The notes under the pieces were generated by a model. That model had not been told where the DNA came from, ran no database searches, and saw only the letters and a list, made by a program, of their open reading frames with translations. The translations under genes and the position numbers were made by a program. This document shows positions 47,344-56,946 of a DNA stretch of 64,000 bases, piece by piece. The stretch comes from Candidatus Gastranaerophilales bacterium (GTDB lineage: Bacteria > Cyanobacteriota > Vampirovibrionia > Gastranaerophilales > Gastranaerophilaceae), in assembly GCA_944326605.1 (NCBI GenBank), contig CALVEM010000006.1, positions 1-64,000 on the forward strand, in the 5' to 3' direction. Every line of letters begins with the position of its first letter. Position 1 is the stretch's first letter.

Positions 47344-47403
47344 GTAGGTTGGGCTTTCAGCCCAACATTAAATGATTTTGTTGGGGTAGAAACCCCAACC
47401 TAC
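47344..47403 (+). repeat. REP-like 60-bp unit
   Basis: Identical to 41032-41091, with a related prefix (GGAACGTAGCCGTTCC at about 47290) and a CACTTAGGTTTTGCAT segment shared with the copy at 56800. The region 47404-47600 that follows has no gene; it holds an imperfect GC-rich stretch and the tRNA-Ser promoter. Confidence 0.85.
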
Positions 47404-47828: not shown

Positions 47829-47915
47829 GTAGGTTGGGGTTTCTACCCCAACTAATATCAAAAAAATTTTAGAGTCCGATTAATGTCCAATTTATTGTTG
47901 GGCTAAAAGCCCAAC
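47829..47915 (+). repeat. REP-like element, inverted layout
   Basis: GTAGGTTGGGGTTTCTACCCCAAC, a ~45-bp spacer (TAATATCAAA ... AGAGTCCGATTAATG) and GTTGGGCTAAAAGCCCAAC. A diverged copy with the same spacer is at 48427-48510; the two flank the GNAT gene. Confidence 0.8.
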
Positions 47916-51371: not shown

Positions 51372-51395
51372 GTAGGTTGGGGTTTCTACCCCAAC
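51372..51395 (+). repeat. REP-like hairpin upstream of RAYT gene
   Basis: GTAGGTTGGGGTTTCTACC followed by CCAAC: the minimal hairpin of the family, 26 nt before the RAYT start codon. This is the expected position for a REP recognised by its own transposase. Confidence 0.8.
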
Positions 51396-51421
51396 AAAAA
51401 TATTTGATGTAAAATTATAGA

Positions 51422-51952
51422 ATGAATTACAGACGTGTTTTTATACCAAACAGTTATCTGCATTTAATTATTGTCTCTTACAACAGAAAAAATATATTTA
51501 TTAATAACATTGAATTATTAAAACATGCATTTAAAAATGCAAAACAATTTTTTTGTTTTGAAATTATTGCAATTTGTGTTTTGCCGGATCATATACATGT
51601 AATACTGAATCCTAAAAATATTAAAGAATATCCTAAAATTATTACCTCAATAAAATATTATTTTTCCAAAAATTATAATGTCGGAGTAGAAATCCCAACC
51701 TACGGTTATGTTAATAAAGGTGAAAAAGGGATATTCCAACGCAGATTTTTTGAACACACTATTACATCTCAAGAAGACTTAATTAATCAAATAAATTATG
51801 TTCACTACAATCCAGTTAAACACAGACTTGTTAACAAAGTAAAAGACTGGAAGTATTCCTCTTTTCATAAATTTGTAAAGCAGGGTTTATATGAAAATGA
51901 CTGGGGAAATGTAAAAGATGTTGAACATATTATTGATTTAAATTTTGAATAG
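51422..51952 (+). CDS. REP-associated tyrosine transposase (RAYT, Y1_Tnp)
   Basis: A 176-residue HuH single-strand nuclease of the IS200/IS605-related RAYT family. HuH motif is LPDHIHVIL (His-x-His near residues 60-62); the catalytic Tyr lies in NYVHYNPVKHRLV. QRRFFEHTI is the usual RAYT middle motif. Residues VGVEIPTY (~89-96) are encoded by a REP-like sequence at 51683-51703 inside the frame, so the gene seems to have absorbed a repeat. TAAAAT lies 6 nt before the ATG. Likely mobiliser of the palindromes scattered from 41 to 57 kb. Confidence 0.9.
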   Translation: MNYRRVFIPNSYLHLIIVSYNRKNIFINNIELLKHAFKNAKQFFCFEIIAICVLPDHIHVILNPKNIKEYPKIITSIKYYFSKNYNVGVEIPTYGYVNKGEKGIFQRRFFEHTITSQEDLINQINYVHYNPVKHRLVNKVKDWKYSSFHKFVKQGLYENDWGNVKDVEHIIDLNFE

Positions 51953-52019
51953 GATTTATCCCTTTTACTTTCCATCAAACCAACTGTTAATTTACATTCT
52001 AATCAGAAAGGAAACATAA

Positions 52020-56786: not shown

Positions 56787-56946
56787 CCGCTTCACCCAAC
56801 ACTTAGGTTTTGCATTAATTTGTACAGTCTATATAGCCGCTTCATCCATGACAGCTTACGACTTTGCATGAGAAGTAGAAGTAGGTTGGGCTTTCAGCCC
56901 AACATTAAATGATTTTGATTTTGTTGGGGTAGAAATCCCAACCTAC
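56776..56946 (+). repeat. REP-like composite repeat
   Basis: GAAGCGTAGCCGCTTC hairpin, the CACTTAGGTTTTGCAT segment, a second CCGCTTCATCCATGACAGC segment, and the hairpin unit (56881-56946) with a 6-bp duplication in its spacer compared with 41032-41091. Confidence 0.85.

Follow-up and report, generated by a model that had tools for sequence, protein, structure and literature searches.

Many RAYT genes of the Gastranaerophilales family studied here carry a REP of the type that also lies upstream of the same gene within their coding sequence, and this is probably the second REP of a REP-RAYT-REP arrangement, moved into the gene and kept there as a hairpin substrate of the RAYT. In the published description (PMC2817692), a RAYT is invariably bracketed by a pair of inverted REPs. 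Relative to this usual layout, the second REP in this lineage would now reside inside the gene, with none after it. As a result, the inverted pair spans only the leader and the first half of the gene, forming a unit of about 330 nt that resembles a REPIN with half a gene as its spacer. When single-stranded, the minus strand of the internal copy would present the hairpin and GTAG tag recognised and cleaved by TnpA-REP proteins.

The window, a stretch of 64,000 nt, contains a RAYT gene at 51422-51952 on the plus strand (176 amino acids). Its assignment rests on the family model NF047646 (125.7 bits against a cut-off of 80), and E. coli TnpA-REP (PDB 4er8) is a match with E=1e-21. Alignment to TnpA-REP places the HUH motif H57-I-H59 at 51590-51598 and the probable catalytic Tyr126 at 51797-51799, both on the plus strand, and these residues are invariant in 14 orthologues, which were drawn from Candidatus Gastranaerophilales MAGs. 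An upstream (left) REP, GTAGGTTGGGGTTTCTACCCCAAC, forms an intact hairpin at 51372-51395 (plus strand) with its GTAG tag facing outward, and is followed by a 26-nt leader (51396-51421, plus strand); its distance of 26 nt from the ATG is as the sequence-only reading of this DNA had given it. No downstream REP is found up to 300 nt past the stop codon. The gene is not flanked by inverted GTAG REPs on both sides; its second inverted REP is intragenic. Cognate REPs are dispersed through the 2.05-Mb genome, with 21 copies, the upstream REP among them, at no more than two mismatches to GGRGTAGAAAYCCCAACCTAC and none in the control, and only two RAYT matches are present in this genome, the second (L001) being of the clade C kind.

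The full 24-nt internal REP, GTCGGAGTAGAAATCCCAACCTAC, occupies 51680-51703 on the minus strand (codons 87-94), where it reads GTAGGTTGGGATTTCTACTCCGAC. A match to the REP arm, GGAGTAGAAATCCCAACCTAC, had been noticed previously at 51683-51703 on the plus strand, and we confirm that it is present and encodes GVEIPTY inside the open reading frame. The GGAGTAGAAATCCCAACCTAC motif, with up to three mismatches, occurs six times in the window compared with 0.00 times expected from shuffles, and counts from shuffles and from the control rule out a chance match as the source of the internal motif. When the upstream REP is reverse-complemented, 21 of the 24 positions of the internal copy match it. Nevertheless, stem pairs have been lost, and the hairpin is predicted to fold at only -0.6 kcal/mol, versus -8.4 kcal/mol for the intact form. 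The internal REP of this genome is most likely dead or inactive through decay. The earlier suggestion that the transposase might target its own gene is therefore not supported for the window copy, which has probably ceased to be self-targeting. For relatives with an intact internal REP, self-targeting is plausible.

A survey of 288 genomes of the family, together with fetched loci, yielded 110 distinct RAYT coding sequences, about 50 of which have an internal REP, at nucleotides 252-299 of the CDS. Nearly all orthologues of the window gene read VGVETPTY, encoded by GTTGGGGTAGAAACCCCAACCTAC, and this segment is mostly the exact reverse complement of the upstream REP. Indeed, in these approximately 50 genes the internal REP is, with few exceptions, the upstream REP of its own gene in reverse complement, whatever the type: type A (GGGGTAGAAACCCC, peptide VGVETPTY), type B (GGGCAAGTATGCCC, VGQVCPTD/Y), type C (GGCTTAGTAAAGCC or GGATTAGTAAATCC, VGLVKPTY and VGLVNPTY) or type D (TGTGGGCACGC..GCTTTGCCCACACTAC, GHAxALPTL). 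The segment is thus a REP of the same type as that upstream of the same gene, kept as DNA in orthologues and in further relatives. The sequence-only reading would have been undermined had the peptide been conserved in RAYTs of genomes that lack this REP; we looked for such conservation and found that the peptide of other clades differs and spells their own REP. For nearly all genes with an internal REP, the upstream REP matches its own CDS far better than it matches any of 100 codon-shuffled versions. The best match always falls at the internal site, except in L066, where the copy is ruined. Moreover, the predicted folding of 42 of the 47 internal hairpins equals or comes close to that of intact REPs, and the other five, including that of the window, are weakened or decayed copies in open genes.

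An internal REP is not a general feature of RAYTs, being absent from 30 cyanobacterial examples and from roughly one in two family members. Of 20 loci from other families of the class, 12 gave a readable frame, and none of these showed a mid-gene REP; in five loci (L261, L262, L264, L266 and L268) the repeat lies at the 3' terminus of the ORF. A separate case is L024 (3001-3597), in which the RAYT holds several in-frame REP units of two types (GVETPTYGNIETPTYGKECKLGFQPNSIIKPTYG) and further REP-like repeats follow the stop codon.

Aligned to TnpA-REP, the REP codons map to the interval between K82 and Q95, and also lie between the HUH residues (H57, H59) and Tyr126. In TnpA-REP, K82 is reported to contact the REP stem and Q95 the GTAG (PMC8266576). 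A predicted model of low confidence (pLDDT 49), from which the order of elements alone was used, has a helix at 67-85, a loop at 86-106 and a strand at 107-113; by comparison, the REP sits in the loop after the DNA-binding helix. The sequence-only reading regarded the segment as an insertion that adds residues. However, RAYTs without a REP at this site have loops of similar length, and L135 of clade C, which lacks the REP, is nearly equal in length. Similarly long loops without a REP occur in the cyanobacterial RAYTs (L174-L203). Because the REP-less loops, both cyanobacterial and from the family, are equally long, the internal REP does not just lengthen the loop. The loop is naturally variable, and it would tolerate the residues that a REP happens to spell. 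Given the proximity of the aligned peptide to reported stem and GTAG contacts, it is conceivable that the REP-encoded peptide, lying beside the REP-binding face, sets specificity, such that REP and peptide change together. We consider this very improbable, as the loop is unstructured in the low-confidence model and synonymous sites are conserved. For example, a silent GGC/GGA change on one arm of clade C internal REPs pairs with a Lys/Asn change on the other arm, as the hairpin requires.

Several observations point to constraint on the DNA itself. Across 45 genes, internal and upstream REPs are identical at 1018 of 1080 positions, a value reached by none of 20000 permutations of partners within clades (mean 990, maximum 1012). 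When single clades are permuted, the observed value is reached in 11 (clade A), 80 (clade C) and 460 (clade B) of 20000 trials. In clades A, B and C, synonymous divergence in the REP codons is about a quarter of that in the remaining codons, and the windows of eight codons with the lowest divergence in the gene overlap the REP. Among 18 distinct internal REPs, double changes have occurred at four pairs of the stem, and hairpin covariation is 0.433, compared with 0.136 after shuffling and no more than 0.089 once partners are slid. L056 and L099, two members of the A cluster, are B-type at the upstream and the internal site alike, and a third member, L064, carries its own GTAA-tagged variants at the two sites. 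Switches of REP type therefore affect both copies together. These features are not those of a sporadic insertion, that is, of DNA present by chance, unshared and unmaintained, as one site is used in about 50 genes and is subject to synonymous and pairing constraint. Selection on the DNA would keep the internal copy matched to its upstream partner.

Alternatively, the same patterns could reflect concerted evolution without function, wherein a REP landed in a tolerant loop and has been overwritten since by conversion with upstream or genomic REPs. Conversion would account for the identity, the covariation and the low synonymous divergence without selection, and REPs are known inside other genes (PMC3733652). 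We rank this possibility above the other alternatives considered here, followed by autoregulation (see below) and then by tuning of the protein, but still regard it as rather unlikely. In G003, G141, G155 and G171, the REP type is represented solely by the RAYT gene's own pair, and both members are intact; these four genomes have no third copy to act as donor, which argues against constant overwriting by other copies. Conversion restricted to 24 nt within the inverted pair would need to be frequent. Furthermore, conversion does not account for the lack of a downstream REP in genes with an internal one, or for two origins having led to one place and one orientation.

The relation between internal and downstream REPs is most readily understood if the second REP was relocated. 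Family RAYTs without an internal REP usually have an inverted REP 5-60 nt past the stop codon. An internal REP only is found in 43 genes, a downstream REP only in 39, both in three and neither in 13. This exclusivity gives a Fisher value of 1e-12 before correction for relatedness, and the supported independent contrasts for exchange number three, too few to reach significance in a sign test (p about 0.5). Exceptions to the clade pattern deviate in the expected direction. L135 of clade C has no internal REP and has a downstream one, L066 of clade A combines its ruined internal copy with downstream REPs, and L131 and, by eye, L075, which adjoin group D, have a downstream REP only. In a tree built without the loop columns, with SH-aLRT as the only support measure, clades A, B and C and L114 form one cluster along with three REP-less genes; L061 was joined to this cluster by its peptide alone. 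Group D lies elsewhere, among genes without an internal REP, and its internal REP is translated in a different frame from that of the other groups. This separate position and different frame indicate that the internal REP arose at least twice. Given that REP-less RAYTs nearly always have the downstream REP and internal-REP RAYTs nearly always lack it, the second REP would have been relocated into the gene on each of these occasions.

Another role for the internal REP might be as an operator or an mRNA hairpin that limits RAYT expression. The sequence TAAAAT at 51410-51415, 12 nt before the ATG of the window RAYT, resembles a -10 box, and TANNNT occurs within the last 22 nt of 44 of the 47 leaders examined. 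Transcripts starting from such a box would hold the internal but not the upstream REP, and the stable hairpin in mid-gene would suit this role. However, the -10-like box is a pattern match, and a strict sigma-70 scan returned no promoter. In addition, TnpA-REP acts on GTAG-tagged single-stranded DNA (PMC8266576), and the tag here is on the template strand rather than in the mRNA. Since autoregulation also does not predict loss of the downstream REP, we judge it quite improbable.

RAYTs are usually thought to be immobile. Closely related RAYT genes of the family occupy different loci, and for some with a REP-less interior (L086/L103/L091/L093 and L115/L116) homology runs from the upstream GTAG to about the downstream CTAC and no further. 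This suggests that, for genes without an internal REP, whole REP-RAYT-REP units move. L065 and L073, likewise without an internal REP and at different loci, also have homology that stops at GTAG and CTAC. Among genes with an internal REP, homology reaches about 60 nt upstream, as far as the GTAG, and continues for about 45 nt beyond the stop codon, where there is no REP. Because these 45 nt are shared, the right end of the moving unit is not formed by the internal REP.

The 45-nt tail (51953-51996 in the window; L204-L233) is found after the stop codon in many RAYTs with an internal REP and ends in a conserved motif, TCAAACCAACTGTTAATTTACA (51975-51996, plus strand), that is common to such RAYTs of clades A, B and C and is also a dispersed repeat elsewhere. 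The tail also stands alone in the genomes, where it carries two direct TCAAAC..TGTT repeats, follows tRNA-like sequences and is often close to REPs; it could be the end of another mobile element or an insertion hot spot.

About 18 broken genes of the internal-REP clades start or stop at the internal REP. At least four of these breaks (L027, L161, L148 and L143) are due to another IS inserted in the REP hairpin. An IS with ends ..TTTTTAGGGGGACAATTCAA and TGAAATGTCCCC.. lies in or beside the REP hairpin loop in L027, L143, L148, L161, L237 and L254, and several of its insertions are inside RAYT genes. The half genes are mostly 3' halves, and a mobile 5' half as a general element finds little support beyond L141, which stops exactly at the end of the REP. 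In two genomes, RAYT 3' halves with intact frames (L029 and L149) lie directly behind what seems to be the same upstream gene.

Other junctions are informative with respect to REPINs. In L236, the RAYT codons that follow the internal REP are fused in register to a right end of REPIN type, and L238 has the same junction with a flank of only about 25 nt. A relic in the window's own genome (L005, contig C1, about 103043) consists of a REP and 15 nt of leader joined to the codons after the internal REP. These junctions suggest that a REP-half-gene-REP can lose its middle; they fit this event but do not prove its direction. It is possible, although we think it unlikely, that the RAYT acts on the REP pair around its own 5' half, limiting the RAYT and yielding REPINs as deletion products. 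The pair itself differs from REPINs (PMC3116915). Both consist of two inverted REPs with GTAG tags outward, but here the spacer is about 280 nt, comprising the leader and the RAYT 5' half, and the REP-5' half-REP is not a repeated unit, the genome having only the two RAYT matches. Ordinary REPINs are present elsewhere in the same genome. The REPINs of this genome are asymmetric, with GTAGGTTGGGGTTTCTACCCCAAC as the left REP and an inverted REP of another type, GTTGGGCTGAAAGCCCAACCTAC, on the right (window 47383-47403, 47829-47849 and 56926-56946; also L006, L008 and L010).

The arrangement most resembles the REPtron (PMC2817692, PMC8266576), with which it shares the RAYT protein, cognate GTAG hairpins, an inverted pair, the upstream REP, a dispersed REP family and RAYT-REP coevolution. 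REPtrons, however, have both REPs outside the gene, whereas here the second lies in the CDS, 5' of the codon for the catalytic Tyr, and no REP follows the gene. In certain RAYT/TIRYT genes (PMC3733652, figures 8 and 9), the ORF runs at its 3' or 5' end into a flanking repeat, so that a terminal repeat likewise shares DNA with the ORF. That overlap covers the last codons, whereas the REP described here is in mid-gene, between the codons for the HUH motif and for the Tyr. Intragenic REPs and Rickettsia palindromic elements (PMC3733652) also place a palindromic repeat in frame in a tolerant protein segment. In contrast, the host gene here encodes the cognate transposase, the same site is used in many species, and the repeat is matched to the gene's own upstream REP with constraint at the DNA level. 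In the literature searched, most subscription journals lying outside it, we found no earlier account of a RAYT gene with a REP in its middle.

These genes bear on how RAYT and REP stay matched over time, since in many species of this family the partner sequence lies within the gene of the enzyme itself. The internal REP ties substrate and enzyme together genetically and provides a record of both changing in step, which makes RAYT-REP coevolution directly testable. It further hints at one way in which REPINs might arise.
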